A DNA stretch of 64,000 nucleotides from Terriglobia bacterium (GTDB taxonomy: Bacteria > Acidobacteriota > Terriglobia > Terriglobales > Acidobacteriaceae): NCBI GenBank assembly GCA_020072645.1, contig JAIQGK010000003.1, positions 372,001-436,000 of the forward strand, read 5' to 3'. The notes under the pieces are model-generated. The model was given only the letters and a program-made list of their open reading frames with translations, was not told the origin of the DNA and made no database searches. The translations under genes and the position numbers were made by a program. Shown here piece by piece: positions 1 through 14,544 of this stretch (its first letter is position 1; the number at the start of each line of letters is the position of its first letter).

Positions 1-1428
1 AACGAGCGCGGCAGCTAACGTCTCAGGTACTGATTTAGCGTAAACTCGGGCCAACTCCCAGACTAAAGCCTCTTCGGCGACAGCGAGATGGTGCGCGAGT
101 CTGGTGCACCATTGATGGTGGTCCACGCCATGTAGACCAGCAGAAAAATCGCCTAAATCCGTCCCGTACTGCACCTGGACAAAGGCACGGACTGCAGCAC
201 TGGCAAACAGCTCCTTTTCGGGTGGCAGCGTTCCGGGAAGAGCGAATATATTTTCCTTCGGCGTTGGTTGTTTGTCTCCATCCAAAACTACCGCGACTGG
301 CAAGCCGGCTTCTGCAACGGTCCGAATGGTCGTTTTCAGGTCTTCTGCCCCGCGCTCAGCGGCATAGATTCCGGTCGTCGATAATGCTGTCGGGTTTATC
401 CGTCGTATCAGTTCAGTCAAGATCGCCCGCGCGACATCGTCTTCGACTAGCACATTGAGTGCTTTGTCGTACCCCTTTGACATCAGGCTCTTCGCTTCGA
501 TTGAAGTAAGGCCATAAACGACCTTTATACCGCTCGATGAATTGTGGATATACACAGTCGATAAAGACGGCAGGGCAGCGAGCAGTGGGTCGCTGTGTGT
601 TGTTAGAAAAATCTGGTGACCGCGGCGAGTCGCGACGTCAACCAAGAAATTACCAAACTCGCGTTGCGCGTGAGGGTGCAGTGATGTTTCTGGCTCCTCA
701 ATCAGGACACAGCTTTGTTGCGGCAATGCTTCGAGGCTGGTAACGAGATATTGAATACGCCCTTCGCCGCACCCCATATGCGCTTCTGAATACATATTGC
801 CCCCGCGCTTTACCGAAACGACGGCTTTTGACCGGTCGGAATAAGAAACTGTATGCCGCTGCATATCGTCATACGACTGGTCCATGATTCTGCAGGTCCA
901 CTTCTTGATGTGTTCAGCAACGCCTTCGGAACTGTCAACCTTCAGCTTCGACGCATACCGGACAATAAAATCACGCATTTCGATTCGCGGAAGGTACAGG
1001 CCCACACCCGCGAATTGCGTAGGTCGCTCAAGGCGCCTTCGGTATCCAGACCAGTTGGACTTTGCCGCGTTACGAGAAATAGTCAGTTGTTTCAGGCTGT
1101 GATCCTTCTGCCAGAACTTGTATTCGACTCTCGCGTCCATCTTGAATGGGGAGGGGTCCAATGTGCCAACGACTAGGAAATCCTTGATGTAGTAAGAAAG
1201 GGCGAATTTCGGGTTATTTCTGTACGCGACAGCTGCAAGCTGAAGGAGGGTTGATTTTCCTGTACCGTTTATCCCGCAAAAAGCCGTGATTGGACTCTTA
1301 ACCTCGACGGTCGTATCGGCGTGGCAGCGAAAGCCATATACTCTCATTTGCGTCAGCACCGTGCCGAAATTATCAAAGCGATTCGTTTCAACAAATTTTG
1401 CCTGCAACACAGACCGCGGGTCACTCAT
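1..1428 (-). CDS. OLD-like AAA ATPase with TOPRIM-like C-terminus (3' end beyond window)
   Basis: Reading leftward from an ATG at 1428 the frame stays open to base 1, giving 476 codons with no stop, so the gene is cut by the window edge. An SMC/OLD-type Walker A (GINGTGKST) sits near residue 55. A signature-like stretch (GCGEGRIQYL) is followed by a Walker B ending in two acidic residues (CVLIEEPETSLHP). A HSDP/H-loop follows (TTHSDPLLAALP). Further on, LNVLVEDDVARAIL and VAVVLDGDK fit the acidic motifs of the TOPRIM nuclease half of OLD proteins. The start overlaps the stop of the upstream helicase by four bases (ATGA), so the two are translationally coupled and probably act together in defence. 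The family call is firm, the exact system is not. Confidence 0.8.
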   Translation of the reverse strand, partial: MSDPRSVLQAKFVETNRFDNFGTVLTQMRVYGFRCHADTTVEVKSPITAFCGINGTGKSTLLQLAAVAYRNNPKFALSYYIKDFLVVGTLDPSPFKMDARVEYKFWQKDHSLKQLTISRNAAKSNWSGYRRRLERPTQFAGVGLYLPRIEMRDFIVRYASKLKVDSSEGVAEHIKKWTCRIMDQSYDDMQRHTVSYSDRSKAVVSVKRGGNMYSEAHMGCGEGRIQYLVTSLEALPQQSCVLIEEPETSLHPHAQREFGNFLVDVATRRGHQIFLTTHSDPLLAALPSLSTVYIHNSSSGIKVVYGLTSIEAKSLMSKGYDKALNVLVEDDVARAILTELIRRINPTALSTTGIYAAERGAEDLKTTIRTVAEAGLPVAVVLDGDKQPTPKENIFALPGTLPPEKELFASAAVRAFVQVQYGTDLGDFSAGLHGVDHHQWCTRLAHHLAVAEEALVWELARVYAKSVPETLAAALV

Positions 1429-4400
1429 TCAGCAGCCTCAACGATTTCGTTTGCGCCCACGTAGTAATGCTCAACTCGCACGATGGGTTCCCAACCCAAC
1501 CGCGCCGGCTCTTGCACGATGTGAAGTTCAGCCTTCGACCCGCAATTGAAAACCACATATAACCAGTAATCCCGCTTCAGGCGCTCGGCAGTCTTGTATT
1601 CATTGGCTGTCAGCGCGACTTCACCGACACCCGCACGGCCCTTCACTTCAATAAACCGAACATCGGTAAACGTCTTCGCGTCGTGCGGGTGCGGCTTCCG
1701 TGAGATCAAGTCAAAACCACGATTTTCCGCCTCTACACTTTCAACTACCCAACCCCGGGCAATCTCGTACCGTTTTACTTCTTCTACGGCAACTCTCTCG
1801 ATCTCCTCATCCCGAACCATTGGCGCAATTCCCGGCGCATCTCGTTCGGGATGCGGCAAGACCCAGGCCCGCCCAAGGTGCTGGATGTCACCGATGGTGC
1901 ATTGCTTCTCGTTCCGCAATTCCGCTCGGCGGTTCTCCAGGCGATTGTTCAACTCATCGAGGTGTGCCTCGGAAAGAGCGATGTTTCCATCGAGCCCTGG
2001 AATGGTCGTACCTGCCTGCTGGCGACCGACGAGTTCCGCCAACTGCAAGTTCTGGCGGTGAATCAGTTCGCCAAGTGAAATCTCCATGTGCCGCGAGATC
2101 GTGTCCACTTCCTTGTCGCGCTGCGCCGCTGTTTCCGCCAGGAATGATTTCAATGCTAAATCGACCAGTACGCGTTCAACTCCTGCGCGATCTGGCAATC
2201 GACTGCCGTCGGGAACCGGTGTTCCTTTCGGCGCGGGTGAAACGTCTAGCAATAGCGTTGGTTGCCGGATGGCGAGGTCACCGCTTGAAGTGGCTTCTAC
2301 GATGAAGAGTCGGCGATGAAGTGTGTTCGCTCTGCCGTCCTTGATGGACGCGGCAAAAACATCGAGGCGGTACGGGGTCTTTGTGTGCAAGTCGTAAAAA
2401 ACGGCGCCGCGCCGAAGGTCGTCAGTCACCCTTGCGGTGACATCGTCTCGCACCGCTTCAAATAGCGGGTGGCCGGGAGTGACCCATTCCAAAGTTGGGT
2501 CTGCCGGCAGCAATGCTTTATCGAAAACTACTTTCTGGTACTCGCGTCCGAGTTTGCCGAACCTGCCTTCCAGCCGTTCGCCAATAGGCACGAGCGTGCG
2601 AGGAATCTTCCCGACGCGATAGACATGCCCGTCTTTCTGCACAGGGCGGGGATTGACACCAGCGATTGGGCCTGCCGTCGTGAAGAAATCCTCAATGACC
2701 TCGGGGATCAGGCGCCGCTCGCGGGCTTCAGCCGATTTGCCGACAATAGACGCCAGATTCAATTCGCGCTTCGCCAATCCTTCCAGTGTCGAATCGGTGA
2801 TTTTGCGGAAGCGACCCGCATCCACTTCACGCACGATCCGCGCTTCGATATTCGGCAGGTCAGTACGCTTGGCGTACATTTCCCGGAATAGCTTTTCAAG
2901 GAGGTTCGACGGAAAGACTTCGCCTATCACGTCAAAAACATGGTCGGTGCCGAGTTCGCGCCGGATCTCGCTCAACCGTTCTAGCAGCTTTTGGAGTACG
3001 CGGCCTTCTCGCGTATTCACGGCCACGAAGTTGGAAATGAGACAATCGTGCTCCTGCCCGTAGCGATGTATACGCCCCATTCGCTGTTCAAGCCTGACCG
3101 GGTTCCAAGGAATATCGTAGTTAATCATTAACCAGCAAAATTGCAGGTTGATGCCCTCACCGGCTGCCTCCGTAGCTACGAGAACCTGGGCTTCCTCGCG
3201 GAAATCACGCTCGGCATAAATACGCGTACCCGGTGTGTCGCGATCGCCAATCTTCATGCCGCCATGAATCTGGGTGACCTTGAGACCCCATTCGCGGAGC
3301 TTGCCAAGCAGACGCCCGTCTTTGCCGTCGCCGGCGAGGTAATCAAGTGTGTCTTTGTGCTCGGTGAAGATTAGGAGCTTTATCTTCGGATTCGAGAAGA
3401 TTTCAAGCTCGCTCAGAACCTTCTTGAGCTTCACCAGTTTGGATTCGATCTCGCGATGCTCAAGCACCCTCGCCTGGTCAATCAGCCGGCCGATTTGCTG
3501 AATGTCTTCTTTCAGCACAGTCGGGTCAAAACTGATTGCTGCGTTTTCAATCTCCTCGATATACTCTTCGCGCTCTTCCTCCGGCAGATCATCCAAGTCC
3601 TCAGGGATATCCATTTGCTTGCGCAGATACTCCCGTGGATCCTCGAGAATCTTCTTCCGCTTCTCGCGCATGCGTTCCAAGCTGCGGTGAACGGCGTAAA
3701 TGCTGGACGCGAATCGTCGTTGGAGCATGGCCATTGTGAAGGTCAGAGCACGGCTGCGGGGCGTATCTTCCTGTGCGGCCTTGATGGACTGGTCCTCCAC
3801 GTAGCGAGTCAAAGCATCGTAGAAGTCATATTCGTCGCCGTCCAGGTCGAACGATGCGGTGTTTACGGTTCGATTCGTGAACAGCTTCGTAACATTGCCG
3901 GTTTCCGGGTCTGGGAACGAGATCAACGCTTCTTTGGTCCTCCGCAGATAGAACGGAGCGTAGTTCCGGCGCATGGCTTCTTCGAGGCTTTTTACATTGC
4001 CATAAACGTCCCGGTCGAGTAGTTCGAGAAACAGGCAGAAATTCTCGGGATCGCCTTTATGAGGCGTGGCAGTCATCAGCAGGAAATGGTCAGTCATTCC
4101 CGACAACGACTCGCCCAAACGATATGCCAGGGTCTTCTTGTCCGCGCTATACGCTGCCATCTTGTGGGCTTCGTCAACGATGATCAAATCCCAACGGCTG
4201 CGGAGCAGACTGTCTTTCGCGTCCTCAATTCGGGAGACCCACGAAATGGAGGTGATGACCTGATTCCGCTCCTGCCACGGGTTCATCCCGTAATTTGCTC
4301 GGAGCACATCGCTGCGGATCAGCTCGAACTGCTCGCGGAATTTTTCCTTCATCTCACGTTGCCACTGGAACGACAGGCTTGCCGGCGTAATGATGAGAGT

Positions 4401-4853
4401 CCGCTTCACTAGCCCGCGAATTTTCAGCTCCTTGAGCAGCAAGCCGGCCATGATCGTCTTGCCTGCACCTGGGTCGTCGGCAAGAAGGAAGCGAATGCGC
4501 GGCATCGTGAGGAAATAGTCGTAGACTGCTTCAAGTTGATGTGGCAGGGGATCAACCCGCGCAATCGAGAGAGAGAAATACGGGTCGTACTCGTATGCCA
4601 GCCCTAGGCGAAACGCCTCGACGCCGATGCGGAATCGGCTCGGGTCACCGTCAAAGGGCTCCCTTTCAGGCGTTGCTTCCAATTGGGCAATCTGTTCTGG
4701 GCTGAGGATTGGCTCGTGGACCAAATTGCTGTTTAGACCCTTGCCGACCAGCTTTACCGAGGTACCCATCGGAATGGCAACAATGATCTGCACCGGTTCC
4801 GGGAATATTGATCCCCGTACAATGACGTTCGGTTTGAGTTGGTCCAAAATCAT
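1425..4853 (-). CDS. SNF2-family helicase with C-terminal DUF3883 (DrmD-like)
   Basis: This 1142-residue SF2 translocase has Walker A (DDPGAGKT, about residue 127), DEAH (about 228), the SAT-like motif TATPHKGD and motif VI (RLEQRMGRIHRYGQ). That is the HepA/RapA branch of SNF2. A long charged middle region follows, and the C-terminus holds a DUF3883 module (about 1020-1130) with FIEVKGRAG, which resembles the (D/E)xK core of PD-(D/E)XK-like folds. The same SNF2+DUF3883 build is typical of DrmD in class 1 DISARM, but no DrmA/B/C or methylase gene is visible here. It is the first gene of a leftward pair with the OLD-like ATPase. The ATG at 4853 follows a weak GGGAAA ribosome site. Role inferred: dsDNA translocation in phage defence. 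Confidence 0.85.
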   Translation of the reverse strand: MILDQLKPNVIVRGSIFPEPVQIIVAIPMGTSVKLVGKGLNSNLVHEPILSPEQIAQLEATPEREPFDGDPSRFRIGVEAFRLGLAYEYDPYFSLSIARVDPLPHQLEAVYDYFLTMPRIRFLLADDPGAGKTIMAGLLLKELKIRGLVKRTLIITPASLSFQWQREMKEKFREQFELIRSDVLRANYGMNPWQERNQVITSISWVSRIEDAKDSLLRSRWDLIIVDEAHKMAAYSADKKTLAYRLGESLSGMTDHFLLMTATPHKGDPENFCLFLELLDRDVYGNVKSLEEAMRRNYAPFYLRRTKEALISFPDPETGNVTKLFTNRTVNTASFDLDGDEYDFYDALTRYVEDQSIKAAQEDTPRSRALTFTMAMLQRRFASSIYAVHRSLERMREKRKKILEDPREYLRKQMDIPEDLDDLPEEEREEYIEEIENAAISFDPTVLKEDIQQIGRLIDQARVLEHREIESKLVKLKKVLSELEIFSNPKIKLLIFTEHKDTLDYLAGDGKDGRLLGKLREWGLKVTQIHGGMKIGDRDTPGTRIYAERDFREEAQVLVATEAAGEGINLQFCWLMINYDIPWNPVRLEQRMGRIHRYGQEHDCLISNFVAVNTREGRVLQKLLERLSEIRRELGTDHVFDVIGEVFPSNLLEKLFREMYAKRTDLPNIEARIVREVDAGRFRKITDSTLEGLAKRELNLASIVGKSAEARERRLIPEVIEDFFTTAGPIAGVNPRPVQKDGHVYRVGKIPRTLVPIGERLEGRFGKLGREYQKVVFDKALLPADPTLEWVTPGHPLFEAVRDDVTARVTDDLRRGAVFYDLHTKTPYRLDVFAASIKDGRANTLHRRLFIVEATSSGDLAIRQPTLLLDVSPAPKGTPVPDGSRLPDRAGVERVLVDLALKSFLAETAAQRDKEVDTISRHMEISLGELIHRQNLQLAELVGRQQAGTTIPGLDGNIALSEAHLDELNNRLENRRAELRNEKQCTIGDIQHLGRAWVLPHPERDAPGIAPMVRDEEIERVAVEEVKRYEIARGWVVESVEAENRGFDLISRKPHPHDAKTFTDVRFIEVKGRAGVGEVALTANEYKTAERLKRDYWLYVVFNCGSKAELHIVQEPARLGWEPIVRVEHYYVGANEIVEAAE

Positions 4854-5069
4854 TTTCCCGTAAACTCAAGTACTGCAGAGACTTACACTGCAAGCCGAAG
4901 GCTCGCACGCACCTAAAGATCCAAGGGGAAGCAATTCGCTGGTGGCCTTCAACTATAACAAAGGATTAGAGATAATCGCAGTAGATAAAGCGCCCTAGTA
5001 AATGCACAGTTCCGCTAAGCACCCCGGCAGGAAAAAAATTCCACCCGAGTCTCCGTTTGCATATGGCTC

Positions 5070-5897
5070 TCAGCTACGGAGGATGCGATAGCAGATCTCG
5101 CCATCATGAGCACGAAGAGTTCGCGTGGGGAGCTTCTCTACCAACTCCCAGTCGCTGAACGCAGCTTCCGTATCGAAAGCTCCAAGGATCATGAGTAAGC
5201 GCGAGGTGTCCATGCCCGCGACGGAGAAAGCGACATACGTGTCGTGCAATGTGTCGACAACCTCGACTAATACGGCAGCTGTTTCCTCGCCGCCGAGGAT
5301 ACCAACTTGCTCTACTCCAACATTTGAGCGAGCGCGGTCGAGAAGCTGTTGGGCGTCCTCGTAGAGGGTTTCTACGAAGCGCCGACCACGGTCCTCAAAC
5401 AATGCCGCGTAGTCATCCTCCGTCGGCATTAGGGCGCCTGCGCCGATCAGATCGTGAAAGTACGGGAATGCGTCATCGTCCTCGCCGGACCGATGCAGCC
5501 GATACGCACATAACCAAACGACTCGCTCGGCCTGATCGTACCAGGTTGCCCCACGGTGATCGTGCCCATGCCCAAGGCGATGAACGGTTAAATCGCCGGC
5601 TGCGGGCCCGACCGTCCGCGTTCCGATTGGTTCCGTCGCGCGCTGGGTTTCGAACGCATGGACGATAGGGTGTGCACGAGCCTCGGCAAACCTCGTGCTC
5701 GACTCGAAACCGAGATCGGAAACGAGGCATCGTAGCGTGATTCTGAGTTCGTATCTCTCACAGATGAAGGAGCCGCCTTGGCATCGAAATGGCTGTCGAC
5801 CGTTCACGGGGCGAATGCTCTGAATCTCAGTGGTCGACCTACCGCTTAATTCGTGCAGCAGCTTGCTTTGCACGCTCACGGTTATGGCGGTTCGCAT
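5070..5897 (-). CDS. unknown protein, partner of the upstream wHTH regulator
   Basis: I do not recognise this 275-residue protein. It is acidic and probably soluble, with no membrane segments. Recognisable stretches are HRLGHGHDHRGATWYD and an acidic helical part (GEDDDAFPYFHDL). The ATG at 5897 overlaps the regulator's 3' end by 59 bases. The first 30 residues look like the regulator's other frame, so a GTG at 5807 (VNGRQPF) is an equally good start. Translational coupling to a DNA-binding protein resembles toxin-antitoxin or regulator-effector pairs, and it lies divergent from the ubiquitin-like operon. No catalytic motif is apparent, so function is open. Confidence 0.6.
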   Translation of the reverse strand: MRTAITVSVQSKLLHELSGRSTTEIQSIRPVNGRQPFRCQGGSFICERYELRITLRCLVSDLGFESSTRFAEARAHPIVHAFETQRATEPIGTRTVGPAAGDLTVHRLGHGHDHRGATWYDQAERVVWLCAYRLHRSGEDDDAFPYFHDLIGAGALMPTEDDYAALFEDRGRRFVETLYEDAQQLLDRARSNVGVEQVGILGGEETAAVLVEVVDTLHDTYVAFSVAGMDTSRLLMILGAFDTEAAFSDWELVEKLPTRTLRAHDGEICYRILRS

Positions 5898-6741
5898 ACG
5901 CGGCTAATCCTTCTCTGTCGTTTTCTTTAAGCATGCGCCTGACGTCTTGTGACTCCGAGTCAAGGACGTCGCGGTGCCGGTCGAGGAATTCGCACCAGGC
6001 ACGCCGTAAGACTTCGGACGGATCGGATCCCTGCATCCTGGCTAGTCCCTCAACGCTGGCGCGAACTTCCTCTGGAATATTAAATTCCGAGCCTCCGCTG
6101 AACACCTGTTTAATGCCGGTTGTCGCGGCGCCGCTCATCTCCGCTGCAGATAGCAGGTCAATGAACGCGTCCCCCTCCCGACGCGACCGGCTCACTCGCT
6201 GGACATATCCTTTCTTTGCGAGAGCGCTCAGGCGATTGACAGCGGCGTTCACTTCTATGCCTGCGATGTCTGCGACTCGGGAGCTGGTCACTTCGCCGCC
6301 AGCGCTTCGAACCAATCCGTAGGTTTGCATTTCGACCGTAGTGAGAGCCCCAATGGGTCGCGCTTGACTTAGCGGCGCATCGGGAGCTGAGGAAAGAAAA
6401 ATTGGCAGCTCGTGTTTCTCAGCCAAAGCCTCCAGAAACTCTACGACCGCCTCGTCGGACGTCACGATGACGAGCGCAGCTGAACCGTAAACCCCTCTGC
6501 GTATGGACTGACCGAGTGGGAGGATCATTTCTTTGAGCGCACCAGGGGAAAACAAGCAACCCTCTAGATTGATAGAGAAGACGCGCTCCGAGTCTGTAGC
6601 GGTAGGTGGAAATTCCTTATCGCGATACCGCGCTATTTGATGGCGGTCGGGGTAGACAGCGGTTGGAGGCCGCGAAGGATGATACGCAATTGGCTTTTCC
6701 AGAACGCTCATATGAGGTGTCATCATAATGTATCGAAGCAC
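5839..6741 (-). CDS. winged-helix regulator with STAS-like N-terminus, putative repressor of the Ubl operon
   Basis: This is a 300-residue protein. Residues about 55-115 look like an alpha/beta STAS-like domain (VFSINLEGCLFSP, SAALVIVTSDEAVVEFLEAL). Residues about 140-195 form a MarR-like winged helix (TSSRVADIAGIEVNAAVNRLSALAKKGYV, where AAVNRLSAL is the recognition helix). Residues about 215-245 resemble a ribbon-helix-helix (FNIPEEVRASVEGLARMQG). It is transcribed from the minus-strand half of the symmetric promoter at 6766-6803, so autoregulation and control of the divergent Ubl operon is a natural inference. Starts at GTG 6741 or ATG 6726 are both possible, with no clear ribosome site for either. 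The domain names are my reading of the sequence only. Confidence 0.65.
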   Translation of the reverse strand: MLRYIMMTPHMSVLEKPIAYHPSRPPTAVYPDRHQIARYRDKEFPPTATDSERVFSINLEGCLFSPGALKEMILPLGQSIRRGVYGSAALVIVTSDEAVVEFLEALAEKHELPIFLSSAPDAPLSQARPIGALTTVEMQTYGLVRSAGGEVTSSRVADIAGIEVNAAVNRLSALAKKGYVQRVSRSRREGDAFIDLLSAAEMSGAATTGIKQVFSGGSEFNIPEEVRASVEGLARMQGSDPSEVLRRAWCEFLDRHRDVLDSESQDVRRMLKENDREGLAAYANRHNRERAKQAAARIKR

Positions 6742-6765
6742 GCCAAACCGGCGACTTTCATCACA

Positions 6766-6803
6766 CTTGACACAGTGTATTATGTGTATTACACTTTGTC
6801 AAG
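6766..6803. promoter_or_regulatory. palindromic operator with two overlapping divergent sigma-70 promoters
   Basis: Two 15-bp arms (6766-6780 and 6789-6803) are inverted copies with two mismatches around an 8-bp spacer. Each arm supplies TTGACA to one strand and the TACACT -10 to the other. The plus strand has TTGACA 6767-6772, 17 bp, TACACT 6790-6795. The minus strand has TTGACA 6802-6797, 17 bp, TACACT 6779-6774. It sits between the divergent regulator and the Ubl operon, and a GGAGG at 6807-6811 precedes the Ubl start. A dimeric repressor on the palindrome would shut both promoters together. Confidence 0.8.
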
Positions 6804-6815
6804 AATGGAGGCAGG

Positions 6816-7076
6816 ATGCCTGACAACGAGATAGATCTCGCTATCGTGGTGAATGGCCAGCCGACGGTGGTCCGCGCGAACAAGAACGCGCCGTTGCGAA
6901 CCGTTATCGCTCGGGCGCTAGAACAAACCGGAAATGCAGGACAACCGCCAGACAACTGGGAACTGAGGGACGCTGCCGGCGCTCCACTTTCTTTGGACCA
7001 GAAGATCGCCGACTTCGGTTTTCCCGCGGACATACGGTTGTTCCTGAATCTCAAGGCAGGAGTTGGCGGAGCATAG
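6816..7076 (+). CDS. ubiquitin-like beta-grasp protein with C-terminal Gly-Gly-Ala (BilA-like, DUF2604-like)
   Basis: This 86-residue protein has a beta-grasp pattern: strand LAIVVNGQPTVVRAN, helix LRTVIARALEQTG, strand WELRDAAGAPL, the turn LDQKIADFGFP and strand ADIRLFLNLKAG. It ends AGVGGA, so Gly84-Gly85 is followed by one residue, Ala86. A Gly-Gly tail blocked by a short extension is what a JAMM peptidase trims before E1 activation. The next three genes encode an E2-like protein, a JAMM protease and an E1, overlapping by 1-4 bases. It has a single domain, whereas ISG15-like BilA proteins are described with two, so this may be a variant. ATG 6816 has a strong GGAGG ribosome site. Confidence 0.85.
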   Translation: MPDNEIDLAIVVNGQPTVVRANKNAPLRTVIARALEQTGNAGQPPDNWELRDAAGAPLSLDQKIADFGFPADIRLFLNLKAGVGGA

Positions 7077-7693
7077 TGAGTCCGGAGCAATTTGTTGACC
7101 CGCAGGTGTCACGCGCGAAGTTCGATCGTGAGCTCGCCGAATATCGACACCTTGAGGCAGACTACCGTCGGCGCGGTTGGCTGCTGGTCAAAGCTGAGTT
7201 TCCATCGGTTCTCGTCGTCCTCGCGACGCCGCAGCTTACGCCTCCAGCGATCGTTACCGGCGTTGCGTTCGACTACACGAACTACGATATGCGGCCTCCC
7301 TCCGTGCGCCTAGTTGATCCCTTCACCTCGGAGCCGTACAAAATGAATGAGCTTCCCACTCATCTCAAGCGGTCTGTAGAAACGGGTGGCTCACCCATTC
7401 CGGGTCTGCAGCTTCCGCTCGGCGCGCAGGCGCGGTTTATCTCCCAGCAGCCGCTGATGCAGTGGTATGGACCGGAGGATATACCTTTTTTGTGCATTGC
7501 CGGTGTTCGTGAATATCACGAGCATCCAGGACATTCTGGCGATGCTTGGGAGCTACACCGTCGCGCCGGTGCAGGTCGTCTTGTCCGACTGCTGGAGACC
7601 ATTGCAAAGTATGGAGTGCAGCCGATTTCCGACTACCAAGTATCACTACAACCTCGCATCTCGGGATTTATTCAACGAGAGGTGCCGTCGTGA
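7076..7693 (+). CDS. E2-like ubiquitin-conjugating protein (BilB-like, possible CEHH metal site)
   Basis: This 205-residue protein has an E2 layout: a first helix (FDRELAEYRHLEADYRRRG), hydrophobic strands, then FDYTNYDMRPPSVRLVDPF, which parallels the E2 strand that ends in proline-proline. It has only one cysteine, Cys140, in PFLCIAGVREYHEHPGH, the place where an E2 catalytic Cys would be. Glu146, His148, His150 and His153 follow it, which also fits the predicted metal-binding CEHH module found in bacterial E1/JAB operons. The start is GTG 7076, sharing one base with the Ubl stop. In this operon it would accept Ubl from the E1 and pass it to targets. E2 fold versus metal-binding role needs a structure prediction. 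Confidence 0.75.
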   Translation: MSPEQFVDPQVSRAKFDRELAEYRHLEADYRRRGWLLVKAEFPSVLVVLATPQLTPPAIVTGVAFDYTNYDMRPPSVRLVDPFTSEPYKMNELPTHLKRSVETGGSPIPGLQLPLGAQARFISQQPLMQWYGPEDIPFLCIAGVREYHEHPGHSGDAWELHRRAGAGRLVRLLETIAKYGVQPISDYQVSLQPRISGFIQREVPS

Positions 7694-8157
7694 CGCTCAC
7701 GCAGGTGGAGCAGTTTCAAGTGCCCGCAAAGGTTGTTAAAGAGACTGAGGGGATCCTGCGCAGCGCGGGCGCCAAGGGGTACGAAGCTTTTGTACTCTGG
7801 AGTGGTCGGCAGCAGGGTCGATTGTTCAACATTCTGACGGCCCACGTTCCAAAACAAAACTCGTATCGCCTGCATAGCGGGCTGTGCGTACGTGTCGAAG
7901 GCGACGAGCTTCACCGCCTCAACGTGTGGCTCTACGAAGCAGGCGAAGTCTTGGCCATTCAGGTCCATGCCCACCCAGACGAGGCGTATCATTCCGAAAC
8001 GGATGATACCTATCCAATCGTGGCAACACTGGGCGGCCTTTCCATCGTCGCAGCGGAGTTTTGCCGCGCGGGTCTCTTCACGTCTTCGACCGAGATATAC
8101 CGCCTCCAGCCAGACGGTTGGACCAAACAAAAAGCTGATCTGGTGAAGGTGACATAG
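7690..8157 (+). CDS. JAB/MPN (JAMM) Ubl-specific isopeptidase (BilC-like)
   Basis: This is a 155-residue protein from GTG 7690, overlapping the E2-like stop by four bases (GTGA). The JAMM zinc site is complete: Glu32 in YEAFVLWSG, then His93-x-His95-Pro in VHAHPDEAYHSETDD, with Ser102 and Asp105. This is a metalloprotease of the deubiquitinase class. Its expected jobs are trimming Ala86 off the Ubl to expose Gly-Gly and removing Ubl from conjugates. A longer in-frame reading upstream to 7546 lies inside the E2-like gene and is not needed. The operon position between E2 and E1 matches the BilABCD order. Confidence 0.88.
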   Translation: MTLTQVEQFQVPAKVVKETEGILRSAGAKGYEAFVLWSGRQQGRLFNILTAHVPKQNSYRLHSGLCVRVEGDELHRLNVWLYEAGEVLAIQVHAHPDEAYHSETDDTYPIVATLGGLSIVAAEFCRAGLFTSSTEIYRLQPDGWTKQKADLVKVT

Positions 8158-9662
8158 TGGCGCTAGCGGAATATTACGATCGGGCAGCACTAGCGGCTTC
8201 ACAAGTCATCGCCGGATTTGCGCCTGATCTCTTTCGAAGAAGCCTCGAGGAGGCGAATGTTGGGTTGGCAATTGATAAAGAGGCAGCAATATCCGACGAG
8301 GGTAAAGCACTGGCCGACCTCTCCATCAGATTGCTCGCGCGATTATACCCTTGCTTAGAAGTGAGGGCTGAGCTTTCATCAGAAGGCGAGCGCCTAGAGA
8401 GGGTTGCTCGAATGATCAACCCGCGGATCGAGTTTCGGCGTGGAGCTTCCGTTGGAATCGGAATTGGTTCTGGAACTCCTCGTTTCGAAACCACTTACTT
8501 TGCCGGCAGTCACGGATGGGATGCTTTGCTTTCCGTGAGTGAGCCAGTTCGAACAGGATCTTCATCAAATCCGCTTGGTGCGGGTGCGGCTGCCTGCCTC
8601 GCTGTGCGCAATATTTTTGCGCACCTATTGTTACCCAAATCGGACCGCCTCCCAAACATTGACGTACGGCTATCGACATTTTCGTGCGAGCAGAGTGAGA
8701 CTCCGACAAATATTCCGAATGACAATTGGAGTCTCACGGGAGAAGCGGCACTCGTCGGCGTGGGCGCAGTCGGTAACGGGGCCGTGTGGGCGCTCGGGCG
8801 CTCCCCTGTAAGGGGCGCGATTCACATCGTCGACCACGAGTGCCTGGAACTCAGCAATCTTCAGCGCTACGTGCTGGCTAACCAGGCCGACGAGGCCAGA
8901 CCCAAGGTGGAAATTGCTCAGGAATACTACCTTCGTGAGCTCAAGTGCATACGCCATCAAGTGAAATGGGCTGAGTTCGTGCAGGAATGTGGATACGCTT
9001 GGCGACACGTTCTCGTTGCAGTGGACAGCGCGGCCGACCGCCGTTCTGTGCAAGCTGGCTTGCCCGAATGGATTGCTAACGCCTGGACTCAGCCGGGTGA
9101 TCTTGGCGTGTCCGTGCATGGTCGTTTCGACGGTGCGGGCGCATGTCTCGCATGTCTATACCTGCCGACCGGCACGGCTCCAAATGAGGATGAACTCGTT
9201 GCCGCCGCGCTAGCGATCCCTCAACTCGTGGCAGACGTGCGAACATTGTTGCACAGCGGGGCTGGTGTCGATAGATCTCTGTTATCGGCTGTGGCGCAGA
9301 GCCTTCACCTGCCACTCGAGGAGGTTTTGCGTTATGAGGGGAGACCGATTCGCGAACTCTACGTGGAGGGCGTATGTGGCGGTGGTCTTATTCCGCTTGG
9401 CGTTGTAGGTCTACCACGTCAGGAACTACATGTACCACTTGCCCACCAATCAGCACTTGCAGGAATTCTCCTTGCCGGCGCACTCGCGAAGCGCGCTGTT
9501 GGTAAGACAGCCGAGACGACCACAACGACTCGCATCGATGTGACCAGGCCGCTCGGTGAATTCTTGACGCAGCTGACACTGAAGGCGCGCACTGGGCTAT
9601 GCATCTGTGAAGACGACGATTATGTCCATGCGTACCAGGCAAAATTCGGCGTCATCGGGTAA
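8157..9662 (+). CDS. ThiF-fold E1-like adenylating enzyme (BilD-like)
   Basis: This is a 501-residue protein starting at GTG 8157, one base into the JAMM stop codon. Residues 1-190 are an unrecognised N-terminal domain. The ThiF/E1 Rossmann core starts at about 197 (LVGVGAVGNGAVWAL, Gly201-x-Gly203-x-x-Gly206). Asp226 (HIVDHE), the NLQR motif 234-237 and Asp289 (VAVD) complete the adenylation site. Candidate thioester cysteines are Cys330 and Cys333 (GACLACLYLP). Others are Cys407 and the Cys482/Cys484 pair near the end. It would adenylate the Ubl C-terminal Gly and hand it to the E2-like protein. No ThiS/MoaD pathway genes are near, so a cofactor-sulfur role is unlikely. Confidence 0.88.
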   Translation: MALAEYYDRAALAASQVIAGFAPDLFRRSLEEANVGLAIDKEAAISDEGKALADLSIRLLARLYPCLEVRAELSSEGERLERVARMINPRIEFRRGASVGIGIGSGTPRFETTYFAGSHGWDALLSVSEPVRTGSSSNPLGAGAAACLAVRNIFAHLLLPKSDRLPNIDVRLSTFSCEQSETPTNIPNDNWSLTGEAALVGVGAVGNGAVWALGRSPVRGAIHIVDHECLELSNLQRYVLANQADEARPKVEIAQEYYLRELKCIRHQVKWAEFVQECGYAWRHVLVAVDSAADRRSVQAGLPEWIANAWTQPGDLGVSVHGRFDGAGACLACLYLPTGTAPNEDELVAAALAIPQLVADVRTLLHSGAGVDRSLLSAVAQSLHLPLEEVLRYEGRPIRELYVEGVCGGGLIPLGVVGLPRQELHVPLAHQSALAGILLAGALAKRAVGKTAETTTTTRIDVTRPLGEFLTQLTLKARTGLCICEDDDYVHAYQAKFGVIG

Positions 9663-9815: not shown

Positions 9816-10340
9816 TTACCTTCGGGCGCGCTTGGGTCGATTGCTGCCGTGGGCGGATTTCGGCTGCTTTTTGACCGTTTCTTTTGAGCCAGATACCGAT
9901 GCGATTCCGTATGCAAAAGCTTTCGTCGCATCGGCGACGTTAACCAGCTCTCCAAGCATCCGCGGTAAATCGACAACAAAGCTCAGGTAGCCTTGACCAG
10001 GTCTTGAAAGGACGCTGATAAGCTCTCCCTCACGGACAATAGCCACATCGCCCCCAGTGACTACGAGTCGGACTTCTGAAAGCGGCTTTTCGATCTCTTC
10101 GTCTTCGTGCAGAAATTTCACGACTTTTTTGAGCGAGGAAGTCGTGACGCCTGACTTTCGCAGCTCAAACGCTACTTTTAGGGCGACTAGGTCACTAAAG
10201 CTGTAAATGCGCTCGCTTCCTGAACCCACGCCCTCGGAAACACTTGGCCGGATCAAACCCTTCTTCGCCCAAAGATTCAACGTTGAGTATGGAACCCCCG
10301 TTAAACGGGTGACTTGCCTCGGTGTAAAGCCGACCTGCAT
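9816..10340 (-). CDS. MerR-family transcriptional regulator
   Basis: A MerR winged helix starts the protein (FTPRQVTRLTGVPYSTLNLWAKKGLI, residues 4-29). SFSDLVALKVAFELRKSGV and SSLKKVVKFLHE follow, then a beta-rich C-terminal half without the paired cysteines of metal sensors. The tail is rich in Lys/Arg. ATG 10340 is preferred because the MerR fold begins there; the frame is open to 10433. It is divergent from the short-Argonaute operon (start 10494) and converges on the E1 gene, so it is the likeliest local regulator of the Argonaute operon. The ligand is unknown. Confidence 0.75.
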   Translation of the reverse strand: MQVGFTPRQVTRLTGVPYSTLNLWAKKGLIRPSVSEGVGSGSERIYSFSDLVALKVAFELRKSGVTTSSLKKVVKFLHEDEEIEKPLSEVRLVVTGGDVAIVREGELISVLSRPGQGYLSFVVDLPRMLGELVNVADATKAFAYGIASVSGSKETVKKQPKSAHGSNRPKRARR

Positions 10341-10493
10341 ATGCACCAAAAGTGTAGCACGATTGACGCCGAATGAAGCGAGGTATATTCTTAATGTACT
10401 CCTTTTGATAATGCCCGCCATCAAGAGAAGCAATAGGCAATTGAGCTGCCTGTGGGCCTCACACTCCTGGGAATCTTGTTCTGAGGTTGTGAA

Positions 10494-13073
10494 ATGTCAG
10501 TTACCAATGGTAGTAAAGAGGCGCTGTCGGTGCTTGCCTCACTTCTGCGGCCGGGAGACCGCCCCTGGCCTCTTCTCTTGCTTGGCGCCGGAGCCTCTTT
10601 CCGGTCGGGCGTTCCGACTGCAGCAACCGCGGTTAAGCAGATTGCACGCATTTCGTATTCCGAGAGCGTCCTGCGAAATAGTCGCCCGCCGGAGCGAGTC
10701 AAGCCTTCCGAATGGGAGTCGTGGCTCCAGAGCCTACCGTGGTTCATCCCCGGTTCTGATCGTCTAGCCGAGAATTTTCCTCTCGCCGTAGAGCACCTGC
10801 TGGTTCCCGCCGAATTCCGTAAACGCATCATTCTTGATCTGATGCGACCTGTGAATGGCATCAGCCCTGGTTACAAGGTTCTGGCCGATTTTGTAATGCG
10901 AGGGCTTGTCCGAACAATTCTGACGACGAATTTCGATACGTGCCTCCCAGATGCGTTTAGGGAACGGCAACCGCACATCCGCAGAATTGACGAAGTCAAT
11001 CGTTACAGCGGCGATTACGACCAATTCAGTATCTATAGCAAGTGCCAAATCATTTGGCTGCATGGTCGCGCGGAACACTACTCGGATCGGAATGCGAGTG
11101 GCGAAACCGGGTCGTTGGATGAGCCGCTGATTTCCAGACTTCGGCCCATGCTCGACGCGTCACCTGTAATCGTCGTTGGTTATAGAGGTTCGGAATCGTC
11201 GATCATGGAAGGACTGTTTAGGCAGACCAATGACGGCCGACTTGATTTTCCGGCGGGCATTTATTGGTGCATCAGGGGTGGCGAAACTCCACATCCGAAC
11301 GTCGAAAGATTGGCGGGTCGGCTCGGTTCTAATTTCCGCTTCCTCAAGATCGACGGATTTGACGAGCTCTTTAGTGAGCTGTCTAAAGAACTCGCCGGTC
11401 AAGACCGATATGCGGTGCCAGAAAACGCCGTCCGGGCTTCAGAAAGCATCCACGCATTCGATGAAAGCGTTATTCAAAGCGCGTCACTCGATGACGTTGA
11501 TCTAGATCTTACGCTCTCTGTACTGCGAGAGTACTGCACCCGGCTGGGGCGGGCTCCACTGACGAGAGAGACACTGATTCCACTCATGCGTGAGCAAGGC
11601 CTCGTCGTTCCTGATGAGAACGGCGATAGAGTCACGGCAGGAGCCCTTTTGCTTTTTGGCCGGCGGACCCAGGAATTCTTCCCACACGCCGTTGTCTCGC
11701 TCACTGAAGCTGGTAAGAAACGTGAAATATACGACGGCAACCTAATCACTCAGCACCGGCGACTTCTCGAAAAACTGGAAAGTGCTGAAGTTAACCCGCC
11801 ACTAAAAGTTAAGAAACGGCGGGTACATAGCGATGAGGTGCCGTATCCTCCGCGGGTTCTCGTCGAACTCTTGGTCAACATGCTGGTGCATCGCGATTAT
11901 GAGATTCCGGAAAAGTCCAGCATTGAGGTGCAGCCTGGGGCAGAAATTACATTCACCAATCCAGGTGGACTCACGCCGAAATTGGCTGGAAAGCTGGGAC
12001 TCGGATCGGATGGCAGAATCCTAGTGTCCGAAAGTGTGACCGATCAACGGAATCCTTCTCTGTGCGACATTTTTTTTGGGCTCAAGGCGATGGAACGAGC
12101 TGGGACGGGTTTGATGGACGTTGCCCAGCTAATGGCGACCTCGGGAGGTACGTCAGCCTTTTATCACAGCCCTGTCGAATCACGATTTACGGCTGTTGTG
12201 GCACAAGCCCAAGCGTCTGCGGGATCGCGCAGCGTGGCGCGGTCGGATGTTCCGACAGGACTGTACGTGCTCAATGTTCTTCCATTTACTGCTGTACCCG
12301 AAAAGGTCTCAATCATTCGATTGACTGTACCGCTACATCAGCGCCCGTCCAGCGTTGATTTATCGGAATGCGGAACGTTCGTGCGGCGTGCAGGAGGGCT
12401 TGAATTATGGAGTTTCGTGCCGTTTCCGATTTTGCTGTCGCTGCTCGACCCTATCATTGATAAGAAGTCCAGCATAGCTCTCCTGCGCCGGGAAATCGAG
12501 GCATGTCCAGATTCAAAGCGCGTTCTATCTTGGCTATTACGAAACCACGTGGAGTACCACTTCCTCGGGTTCGAAGATCAAGGATTGATTCTTGAGGACG
12601 CCGGGAAGCATCGTGCCTATTTCGCGGGCACGAAGAAGGGCGAGCGAATGGTCGTGTGGAACAGTGCCCAAAGGCGTGGGATTAAGCGGGAAGTTGTCAA
12701 GAGGCGCGCGGACGGGCCACGAGCTTGGTTCGAAAATGAAGGGTTTGGTTATGAGGTTGTGGATCTCGGAGGATCGTGGTGTCTTCGCGTTAAACCCTTC
12801 TACATGTTTACGGGCCAGAATGCGAGGACGCCTCTATCGTCTTTTGCGCGCGCTGCCAAGGCGACACGTCGCATTAAGTTTGATCGGAATAAGAACGTGG
12901 AGGCGGATCTCGCATTTTGGGCTAATTTTATCGGTCGTGGTGCCGAAACGATCAACGTTGGCGACCTGCATGTCGACGATTTGCTCATCGACACGAATTT
13001 TTTGACAGTAGAAGTGCCGGAGATTGGATTGAGCAACAATGAGCCTGAACTTAAGAATCGAATGTCTGCCTGA
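10494..13073 (+). CDS. SIR2-HATPase-APAZ fusion, effector subunit of a short-Argonaute system
   Basis: This 859-residue protein has three parts. SIR2-like NADase, about 25-300: GAGAS 31-35, TTNFD 144-148, His190 (WLHG) and VVGYRGS 227-233. A GHKL/RecG-like HATPase_c_4 region, about 330-570: ELLVNMLVHRDY 458-469 as the N box, FTNPGGL 487-493, RNPSLCDIFF and MERAGTGL 533-540. An APAZ-like domain, about 585-845: ERMVVWNSAQRRG, WCLRVKPFYMFTG, LSSFARAAKATRR. APAZ replaces the missing N/PAZ half of the short pAgo encoded next, which overlaps by 35 bases. In SIR2-APAZ/pAgo systems, guide-target recognition switches on NAD+ depletion and abortive infection. The intervening ATPase-like domain is the odd part. 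TGAGG at 10481-10485 precedes the ATG. Confidence 0.85.
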   Translation: MSVTNGSKEALSVLASLLRPGDRPWPLLLLGAGASFRSGVPTAATAVKQIARISYSESVLRNSRPPERVKPSEWESWLQSLPWFIPGSDRLAENFPLAVEHLLVPAEFRKRIILDLMRPVNGISPGYKVLADFVMRGLVRTILTTNFDTCLPDAFRERQPHIRRIDEVNRYSGDYDQFSIYSKCQIIWLHGRAEHYSDRNASGETGSLDEPLISRLRPMLDASPVIVVGYRGSESSIMEGLFRQTNDGRLDFPAGIYWCIRGGETPHPNVERLAGRLGSNFRFLKIDGFDELFSELSKELAGQDRYAVPENAVRASESIHAFDESVIQSASLDDVDLDLTLSVLREYCTRLGRAPLTRETLIPLMREQGLVVPDENGDRVTAGALLLFGRRTQEFFPHAVVSLTEAGKKREIYDGNLITQHRRLLEKLESAEVNPPLKVKKRRVHSDEVPYPPRVLVELLVNMLVHRDYEIPEKSSIEVQPGAEITFTNPGGLTPKLAGKLGLGSDGRILVSESVTDQRNPSLCDIFFGLKAMERAGTGLMDVAQLMATSGGTSAFYHSPVESRFTAVVAQAQASAGSRSVARSDVPTGLYVLNVLPFTAVPEKVSIIRLTVPLHQRPSSVDLSECGTFVRRAGGLELWSFVPFPILLSLLDPIIDKKSSIALLRREIEACPDSKRVLSWLLRNHVEYHFLGFEDQGLILEDAGKHRAYFAGTKKGERMVVWNSAQRRGIKREVVKRRADGPRAWFENEGFGYEVVDLGGSWCLRVKPFYMFTGQNARTPLSSFARAAKATRRIKFDRNKNVEADLAFWANFIGRGAETINVGDLHVDDLLIDTNFLTVEVPEIGLSNNEPELKNRMSA

Positions 13074-14544
13074 ACCTGTACTGTTGTTCGGAGGCAATGC
13101 AACGGGCGTCGAACCACGTCGCATCATGGCAAAGTACGGCGCAGCGGACAAAGCGGCTGCACCGAACGAGCTTCGCATCGGTATCGTCGGTCCCGCAGCG
13201 GACGTTCAATTCGCGCGGAATTGGCTCCCCCGATTGAACGGGGTCGCGATAGCGCGCGAGAAGAGCGCGAAACGATATCGGGATTGGCCTGGTGCGCGGC
13301 AGGTCTTCGGCGCGACCTTCGTGGCAGATGATCGGTTTATTCGTCCGCTGGACGATGATCGTTTGAACCTGGCGCTCCACCGCGCTGCACCTTCTGAGCG
13401 GTTTGACGAGCTGCTCGATCTGTTTGACTCTAGAATTCAAGGTCTTTTTGGCGATACCCGCCCTGACTGCATCATCGTGTGTTTACCTGATGAGTTGGCA
13501 GACTTGAGGATCAGCAATCCGAAATTGTCTGCAAAGGAACGCGAGATTCTCGAGCGGCTTCAGCGAGAAGAAGAGCAAGAACAGATGTCTCTCTTCCAGC
13601 CTACACCGGAGGAAATGAAGGCGGCCGAAGAGTTACGAACAACTGCTGAGGATTTGCTGTTTCGGACGTTCTATCGAGCGCTAAAAGCGCGCATCATGAC
13701 GCATCAGAATCCTGTCCCGATACAGGTCATCCGCACAGAGACATTCCTTCGGCCCGATGAGGAAGGCCAGAGTTTTGCGACGCGAGCTTGGAATCTAGCG
13801 ACTTCTCTTTTTTACAAAGCTGGACATGAACCGTGGCGGCCAGGCGATTTGCCTGGCAATACGTGTTTTATCGGGATTTCATTTCATCATCTTAAACGCA
13901 GAGAAGGTGATGTGATTTACGCGAGCGTGGCGCAGGCGTTCTCGAACGACGTGGAGCCGTTCGCTCTGAAAGGATCTCTGGTTCCGCATAACCAGCGCAG
14001 GGATCGTCAGCCGTATCTGACAGAGTCTCAATCTGCAAGTTTGATGGCGGACGTTCTCGACAAGTACAAGGATCGCGCCGGAATGCTTCCCGGGCGAGTG
14101 GTGGTGCACAAGACAAGCATCTATCAGCCGGAAGAAGAAGCGGGGTTCCGGTCTGTCGCAGAATCGAAAGTATCGGCATGCGAGTTGATGTGGATGCGAA
14201 GTACGGCGTTCCGGCTAATCCGCAAGGGAATGCAAGAGCCCTGGCGCGGAACCTTGTGCAGCGTGGGCGACGAGTCATATCTGTTCACCAGCGGATATGT
14301 TGCGTGGTGGGACGAGTATCCCGGTCCTCATATTCCAGCCCCACTGGAGATCGGGTCGTGCGGAAAGACAGATATTCGGGAACGAGCAAGAGAGCTTCTC
14401 GCGCTCACGAAGATGAACTGGAATTCCAGCGAAGGTCTTGGGCGTTTTCCAATCACGATTTCTTTCGCGCGGCGGGTTGGAATGCTAATGACGGAGTTGC
14501 CAGAGAATCAGATCCCAAATCCATCGTATCGGTTCTATATGTGA
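13039..14544 (+). CDS. short prokaryotic Argonaute (MID-PIWI, catalytically inactive)
   Basis: This is a 501-residue protein. The MID part is about 140-270 (FRTFYRALKARIMTHQNPVPIQVI region) and PIWI about 245-501 (RAWNLATSLFYKAGHEPW, TCFIGISFHH, VVVHKTSIYQPEE, and a C-terminal PITISFARRVG ending in a hydrophobic YRFYM). Where active Argonautes carry catalytic Asp residues this protein has Ser281 (GISFH) and Lys/Thr (VVVHKTS), so slicing is not expected, as in all short pAgos. The terminal hydrophobic residues fit the usual anchoring of the C-terminus in the guide 5'-end pocket. It forms an operon with the SIR2-APAZ fusion, with which it should assemble into a guide-loaded sensor. Confidence 0.85.
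   Translation: MSLNLRIECLPEPVLLFGGNATGVEPRRIMAKYGAADKAAAPNELRIGIVGPAADVQFARNWLPRLNGVAIAREKSAKRYRDWPGARQVFGATFVADDRFIRPLDDDRLNLALHRAAPSERFDELLDLFDSRIQGLFGDTRPDCIIVCLPDELADLRISNPKLSAKEREILERLQREEEQEQMSLFQPTPEEMKAAEELRTTAEDLLFRTFYRALKARIMTHQNPVPIQVIRTETFLRPDEEGQSFATRAWNLATSLFYKAGHEPWRPGDLPGNTCFIGISFHHLKRREGDVIYASVAQAFSNDVEPFALKGSLVPHNQRRDRQPYLTESQSASLMADVLDKYKDRAGMLPGRVVVHKTSIYQPEEEAGFRSVAESKVSACELMWMRSTAFRLIRKGMQEPWRGTLCSVGDESYLFTSGYVAWWDEYPGPHIPAPLEIGSCGKTDIRERARELLALTKMNWNSSEGLGRFPITISFARRVGMLMTELPENQIPNPSYRFYM

Follow-up and report, generated by a model that had tools for sequence, protein, structure and literature searches.

A probable bacterial ISG15-like (BIL) conjugation operon from an Acidobacteriaceae genome and a divergent CapS-like gene that accompanies one BIL branch

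Four overlapping genes on the forward strand of a Terriglobia bacterium contig (JAIQGK010000003.1) raise the question whether they encode a bacterial ISG15-like (BIL) conjugation system and what, if anything, distinguishes it from the systems of this type already described. They occupy positions 6816-9662 of the window, by which we mean the whole stretch of 64,000 nucleotides that was analysed, and encode, in BilABCD order, a ubiquitin-like protein (Ubl), an E2-like protein, a JAMM protease and an E1. bilA (6816..7076, + strand) encodes an 86 amino acid ubiquitin-like modifier with one beta-grasp domain (PF10790, DUF2604, 1.1e-25; PDB 8tyx_A, 4.7e-27), bilB (7076..7693, +) a 205 amino acid E2-like conjugating enzyme with CEHH residues (PF14455, 1.3e-57; PDB 8tyz_C, 3.1e-49), bilC (7690..8157, +) a 155 amino acid JAMM protease of deubiquitinase-like type (PDB 8tyx_B, DUB(BilC), 4.5e-31) and bilD (8157..9662, +) a 501 amino acid E1-like activating enzyme (PDB 8tyz_A, E1(BilD), 1.3e-113). 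An earlier note, made from the sequence alone, had described the four genes in this order with overlaps of 1-4 bases, and all frames lie where it placed them, bilA and bilB overlapping by 1 base, bilB and bilC by 4 bases and bilC and bilD by 1 base. The start codon is ATG for bilA and GTG for the other three genes; bilC is read from GTG 7690, and a longer frame beginning at TTG 7546 is given by the open reading frame program. A purine-rich stretch can be read in the sequence upstream of bilA.

Each of the four proteins finds its best PDB match in its counterpart from a single solved BIL operon (8TYX/8TYY/8TYZ/8TZ0), which we take to be the operon of Chambers 2024. For BilD the next-best PDB match, a NEDD8 E1, follows far behind at 1.4e-4. 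The profile searches proposed in the earlier note gave Pfam matches far above chance for DUF2604 (1.1e-25), Metal_CEHH (1.3e-57), Prok-E2_C (2.1e-24) and ThiF (1.1e-9); Prok-JAB on BilC is weak (0.032), as against 4.5e-31 for the same protein to the solved DUB(BilC). PF14455, PF14464 and PF14459 are among the families listed for an ISG15-like system (PMC10952713). BilB of Sinorhizobium fredii NGR234 plasmid pNGR234a (L006 in our numbering of compared loci) is near-identical (1.3e-128) to the E2 that was crystallised, and the solved operon accordingly belongs with L006 and L007, two loci on rhizobial plasmids. Like the solved operon, the window has a Ubl, an E2 with CEHH, a JAMM protease, an E1 with its cysteine, a single-domain BilA and all catalytic residues, and its gene order is that of L006; unlike NGR234, it has a BilA tail of GG-A (AG-A in NGR234), and its BilB and BilD are ~43% identical to the NGR234 proteins.

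Against this identification, the PADLOC models for BilB, BilC and BilD match the window weakly (1.5e-5, 9.8e-9 and 1.9e-13), although NGR234 BilB, near-identical to the solved BilB, itself gives no match at 0.01 and NGR234 BilD gives 1e-15. The Collimonas OK412 BIL system (Hor 2024), for which Ubl conjugation against phage is reported (PMC11364771, PMC12948488), differs from the window in having a two-domain BilA according to a review (PMC11354881), a comparison made by description. Like the Bub operons (Ye 2026, Gong 2025, as cited in PMC13373217) the four genes would form a bacterial ubiquitination-like pathway; what sets them apart here is that, across the PDB, their products match BIL chains best. 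Judged by sequence and profile evidence, it is very probable that the operon is a BIL system in both identity and conjugation chemistry, a judgement that leaves its regulator aside, and the reading of the earlier note as a Bil-type conjugation operon is borne out by the Pfam and PDB matches of all four proteins and their intact catalytic residues. It is thereby a further member of an already known system type, complete and intact, added from an Acidobacteriaceae genome; through the regulator discussed below it may also represent a new variant in its control, with somewhat less than an even chance.

The GG tail of BilA, the lone Cys140 of the E2-like protein and the JAMM and E1 motifs, all named in the earlier note, are present in the frames. 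In BilB the residues C140, E146, H148 and H153 have the spacing (C, +6, +8, +13) of the CEHH of the E2 BilB, and by alignment to the solved chain they correspond to Cys138, Glu144, His146 and His151 of the reviewed protein, where catalysis is assigned to Cys138 and His151, and a structural role through hydrogen bonds to Glu144 and His146 (PMC11354881). The C, E, H and H are conserved in 32/32 rows of the BilB alignment, and the neighbouring His150 of the window protein is Asn in L006 and L007. The JAMM residues of BilC are E32 and H93xH95P...S102xxD105; all five are kept in 29/29 BilC rows, and in the alignment E32 stands opposite the E33A position of 8tyx_B. BilD consists of an N-terminal region, which is Prok-E2_C in Pfam, and a C-terminal ThiF domain with the predicted catalytic Cys407, which aligns with C417 of the solved BilD 8tyz_A, the residue given as catalytic in the review (PMC11354881). 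Cys407 is found in 28/29 BilD rows, the remaining one (L003) being without that stretch. The bilC gene lies on the strand opposite to bilABD in L023, L025, L029, L030 and L031, directly behind bilD in L025 and about 2.3 kb past it in the other four, so that the operon is split in that branch.

Two other readings of the enzymes were weighed against a BIL operon. The earlier note had allowed that the Cys-Glu-His-His residues could bind metal. A reading of the CEHH protein as an accessory protein that binds metal, and not as an E2, agrees with the Pfam name of PF14455, 'Predicted metal binding domain', and the conservation of the residues in all rows is expected under the metal and E2 readings alike. 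The spacing, however, is that of the reported E2 catalytic motif, the protein closely matches a chain deposited as E2(BilB), 8tyz_C, and the metal site is left unsupported by the structural role that the review gives to the Glu and the first His; we regard this reading as very unlikely, and the metal site itself is rejected on the published grounds of that review of the structure (PMC11354881), which closes the metal-site lead for BilB. Still less likely is a sulfur-carrier or ThiF-type biosynthetic cluster of MoaD/ThiS-like kind in place of protein conjugation. A ThiF domain (a Pfam match in BilD) and a GG-tailed beta-grasp protein are common to both cluster types, but an E2 that belongs to the family of the solved BilB and the correspondence of Cys407 to Cys417 of BilD speak for conjugation, and the NCBIfam ThiF/MoeB matches are all far below their cut-offs.

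The earlier note had further suggested that the single-domain Ubl marks a distinct subtype, and this did not hold. Window BilA has one DUF2604 match (residues 3-85), and two consecutive beta-grasp domains were not found in it; the crystallised BilA is equally short, the solved chains (98 and 100 residues) aligning up to their own last residue with residues 5-86 of the window protein (82 residues). Multi-domain BilA chains exist too, and the further PDB matches are the Methylobacterium brachiatum BilA 8u38_A (243 amino acids, 2.1e-14) and the multi-ubiquitin protein 9d5b_A (2.5e-14). Short frames are the rule, since 27/28 BilA frames have fewer than 100 residues (counted stop to stop) ahead of the domain, with a single domain match in each, domain number being judged here from frame length and not from structure; the one exception is L017, in which about 180 residues precede it. 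The 82-residue match to the solved BilA and the 27/28 short frames thus rule out a distinct single-domain subtype. In L017 (6215-7603) and L022 (6623-7570) bilA and bilB share one open frame with no stop between them; either cleavage of a BilA-BilB fusion by BilC or an internal start in frame would account for this.

The BilA tail of the window (...AGVGG-A) extends one residue past GG, a sequence that would fit exposure of a C-terminal Gly by trimming. GG is present in the tail in 9/9 of the loci that carry the divergent regulator described below, at the very end in three (L009, L010, L012) and followed by 1-3 residues in six. bilC is kept in all nine, including the three in which BilA already ends at GG, so that a role in removal may fit the protease as well as one in trimming.

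By analogy with the solved relatives, BilC would trim the last Ala of BilA and so expose Gly85, BilD would adenylate BilA and receive it on Cys407, and BilB would receive it on Cys140 and, with the active-site His153, transfer it to lysines on its targets, from which BilC may in turn release it. BIL systems conjugate the Ubl to lysines. For published relatives it is described that BilA is trimmed, that the E1 carries BilA on Cys417 as an intermediate and that the E2 Cys is catalytic (PMC11354881), and the target of the Collimonas system, as cited, is the phage central tail fibre (PMC11364771, PMC12948488). An anti-phage role of the window operon is plausible and, by analogy with Collimonas, likely. 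A response of BIL-type conjugation to general stress or DNA damage instead of phage is an unlikely but not negligible alternative: related Bub operons have not been shown to protect against phage and the kinase-repressor pair CapK+CapS responds to DNA damage (PMC13373217), and the window regulator resembles CapS, while on the other side defence genes adjoin the operon and phage defence is reported for a BIL system (PMC11364771, PMC12948488).

What may be novel is not the operon itself but a divergent regulator that accompanies one BIL branch. The gene at 5839..6741 (-), whose start codon is uncertain, encodes a CapS-like N-terminal part, a MarR-type winged helix (~133-195) and a helical C-terminal part (~205-300). 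A homologue is divergent from and next to bilA in eight further distinct loci (L008-L012, L014-L016), and on the BilD tree the regulator stands upstream of bilA in 8/8 rows of one clade (98/97) and in 0/21 of the remaining rows; the clade is recovered in 99% of 200 bootstrap trees and 0/500 label shuffles were as low. The tree has 29 rows and excludes L016, which also has the regulator (its BilD is truncated where the contig stops), L020 (BilD broken into three frames, each scored separately) and L027 (no BilD match), and the duplicates are L001 and L036 (both the window), L002 (L014), L004 (L029) and L035 (L011). The regulator was searched in L001-L034 and the window by one phmmer-type round (E 0.01, frames of at least 50 amino acids), which a highly diverged copy could escape, and among the rows counted as regulator-less the DNA upstream is nearly absent in L003 and L026 and shorter than 1 kb in L034. 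Regulator-bearing loci belong to Actinomycetota, Dormibacterota, Acidobacteriota and Pseudomonadota, as taken from record annotation or inferred, so that by these assignments a branch of BIL with short Ubls spans four phyla; the rhizobial plasmid loci L005-L007, those examined of 12, differ from the window in lacking the divergent regulator. A general regulator family of the phylum was considered and dismissed, since of 396 phylum genomes, with at most six candidates scored in each, 10 gave matches at E 0.001 and only two matched over the full length, the window's own and G420, which carries the L011 contig with the gene beside bil; the other eight match the winged helix only. No homologue was found in viral contigs, nor in plasmids with the L012 copy as query.

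The gap between the divergent genes holds a 38-base palindrome (6766..6803), a candidate operator, which was equalled in 0/60 and 0/40 shuffles. Within it lie a promoter-like site toward bilA (TTGACA-17-TACACT, 6767..6795, +) and its mirror image toward the regulator (TTGACA-17-TACACT, 6774..6802, -), so that one bound dimer could cover both; in 6600-6900 three promoter-like sites were found against a shuffle mean of 0.3. The CapS-like winged-helix protein would keep the operon off through this palindrome, which overlaps both sites. In L012, L014, L015 and L016 another inverted repeat, at 2-3 mismatches from ATCCACTGT-N2-ACAGTGGAT, stands 23-37 bases upstream of bilA; the motif was picked by eye from the loci in which it was counted, and in 310,639 bases of other loci, to which L037-L047 contribute solely as background DNA, it occurs nowhere at 2 mismatches and twice at 3. 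Elsewhere the gap DNA shows a weak form of it in L011 (5 mismatches), a different palindrome in L009 and nothing clear in L008 and L010.

All nine regulator members match Pfam MarR_2 (best 2.7e-7), L012 alone above the cut-off among the four whose bit scores were inspected. The structure model from the nine-row alignment has a predicted local distance difference test (pLDDT) score of 77.4, with blocks of 76-95 over residues 51-200, and is predicted to have a beta-alpha-beta-alpha-beta N-terminal part followed by the winged helix. CapS is described as a STAS plus winged-helix repressor that CapK phosphorylates upon DNA damage (PMC13373217). Compared with a set made of CapS (WP_001567865.1, named in PMC13373217) and six plasmid relatives, the regulator profile matches CapS at Prob 96 over 152 columns, in keeping with the shared arrangement of an N-terminal domain and then a winged helix; against CapS as a single sequence only the winged helix matches (Prob 62). 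No STAS domain was detected in the regulator by Pfam or among the best 50 of 1326 Foldseek rows (PDB copy to April 2026); almost all of these rows are winged-helix proteins, and no E-value among them reaches 0.001. A CARF reading was discarded, the matches being weak throughout (PADLOC 0.0012; NCBIfam Csa3 0.13 and 0.06; Foldseek Csa3 at rank 24, E 0.0072). In the DxSF motif of CapS, D52 is present in 7/7 rows and position 54 is Ser/Thr in 6/7 (Cys in L054). In the regulator the column of D52, counted by eye, has D in 0/9 and Ser/Thr in 9/9 rows, and that of Ser54 has Ser in 1/9 or 0/9, depending on one gap; residue 94 is Ser/Thr in 9/9. Unlike CapK+CapS, the regulator lacks the DxSF Asp around the phospho-Ser54 and is divergent and not in line, and no CapK was found beside it: none near the window gene, the closest HATPase_c_2 match on the contig being ~190 kb off, and none in 9/9 regulator loci with a crude GHKL pattern, not calibrated on known CapK, on frames of at least 150 amino acids and with several short contigs among them.

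A link of BIL to CapS-type control is already known, since CapK+CapS is reported ahead of five Bil operons (PMC13373217), and it is the sole BIL-associated switch in the literature searched, in which a divergent kinase-less CapS-like gene was not found; the main BIL papers, outside that search, may describe one. Several observations tell against such a gene governing the window's branch. The Prob 96 match to CapS is carried by the winged-helix half, which by itself also gives Prob 96, the N-terminal halves alone reaching Prob 2 (P 0.024), a score that nonetheless exceeds 100/100 column shuffles; as far as profile comparison goes, the link to CapS is secure over the winged helix but no more than suggestive over the remainder. 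The inverted repeats of the window differ from those at other regulator loci. The best palindrome upstream of bilA is equalled by at most 1/40 shuffles in 3/9 regulator loci (window, L009, L014) and by 2 in L015, while in 5/9 (L008, L010, L011, L012, L016) at least 3/40 shuffles equal it, and good palindromes also occur in 3/17 regulator-less loci (L022, L024, L028), which makes a palindrome as such no marker of the regulator. This variation between loci would suit an ordinary neighbour that does not regulate the operon, binding of the regulator to DNA being a prediction; against that stand its divergent position next to bilA here and at eight more loci of four phyla, and the fact that the sole other full-length match within the phylum sample is the L011 copy, also beside bil, and we think a mere neighbour improbable. 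That a divergent CapS-like repressor of its own, with no CapK or phospho-Ser motif and with an operator across overlapping divergent promoters, governs a BIL branch found in several phyla is a tentative proposal, possible and somewhat short of an even chance. If it is true, the N-terminal domain of the regulator would sense infection or damage by a route other than CapK; for instance, it might be phosphorylated on a conserved Ser/Thr nearby by a kinase encoded at some other place in the genome, bind a ligand, or respond to the conjugation system. Control of this branch would become testable through its conserved divergent regulator and the promoter palindrome.

The system is rare in its own lineage, PF14455 being found in 4/399 genomes of the class and 6/200 of the family, own genome included. 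A genome of that family (G358) shares 3,093 identical bases with Granulicella paludicola, by which the window's genome is assigned to Acidobacteriaceae. The BilD nearest to the window on the tree is that of a Solirubrobacteraceae metagenome-assembled genome (49%), and other Acidobacteriaceae BIL copies stand apart, L003, L026, L029 and L030 in one distant clade and L032 in another. Horizontal gain of the operon is likely on this evidence. BilB homologues occur in 12/72,556 plasmid records, all of Rhizobium, Sinorhizobium or Mesorhizobium; phage records and viral contigs yielded none.

Behind the regulator a further gene (5070..5897, -), with an uncertain start and a frame overlapping the regulator, gave no match to Pfam, PADLOC, PHROGs or NCBIfam models within the limits applied; its link to BIL is tentative. 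Among the loci scanned its homologue is found beside the regulator in L008 alone (4958-5827, -), and the protein occurs only where the regulator has the extra C-terminal helical part (window and L008). This part has a weak CopG-like PHROGs match (0.16), by which the regulator and the 5070..5897 protein might form an antitoxin/toxin-like pair.

By its predicted gene content the neighbourhood of the operon is a defence island (HmaA-type helicase, SIR2 protein and short pAgo). At 1-4853 (-) lie an HmaA/DrmD-type helicase (PADLOC HmaA 1.5e-188) and an ATPase frame that leaves the window, OLD-like by eye. Downstream, at 10494-14544 (+), a gene for an 859 amino acid SIR2-domain protein (PADLOC Aga_SIR2 7.8e-150) overlaps a short prokaryotic Argonaute (pAgo) gene (8.8e-135); the SIR2 protein has an ATPase-like region between its SIR2 and C-terminal parts (Pfam HATPase_c_4, 4e-5) and the pair is SPARSA-like. 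Divergent from this pair is a MerR-like regulator (9816-10433, -; Pfam MerR_1 8.5e-12, PADLOC mad1 1.1e-6). At other loci, genes for a TIR-domain and a caspase-family protein lie downstream of the BIL operon of R. etli p42a (L005, 10371-11729), and in L008 a large frame near the operon (1214-4783, +) has by eye an E1-like glycine-rich motif and possibly belongs to a second Ubl-type system. Directly 5' of the distant BIL operon of L033 stands a frame that by eye is a LexA-like repressor (551-1285, +), a hint of DNA-damage control at that locus.

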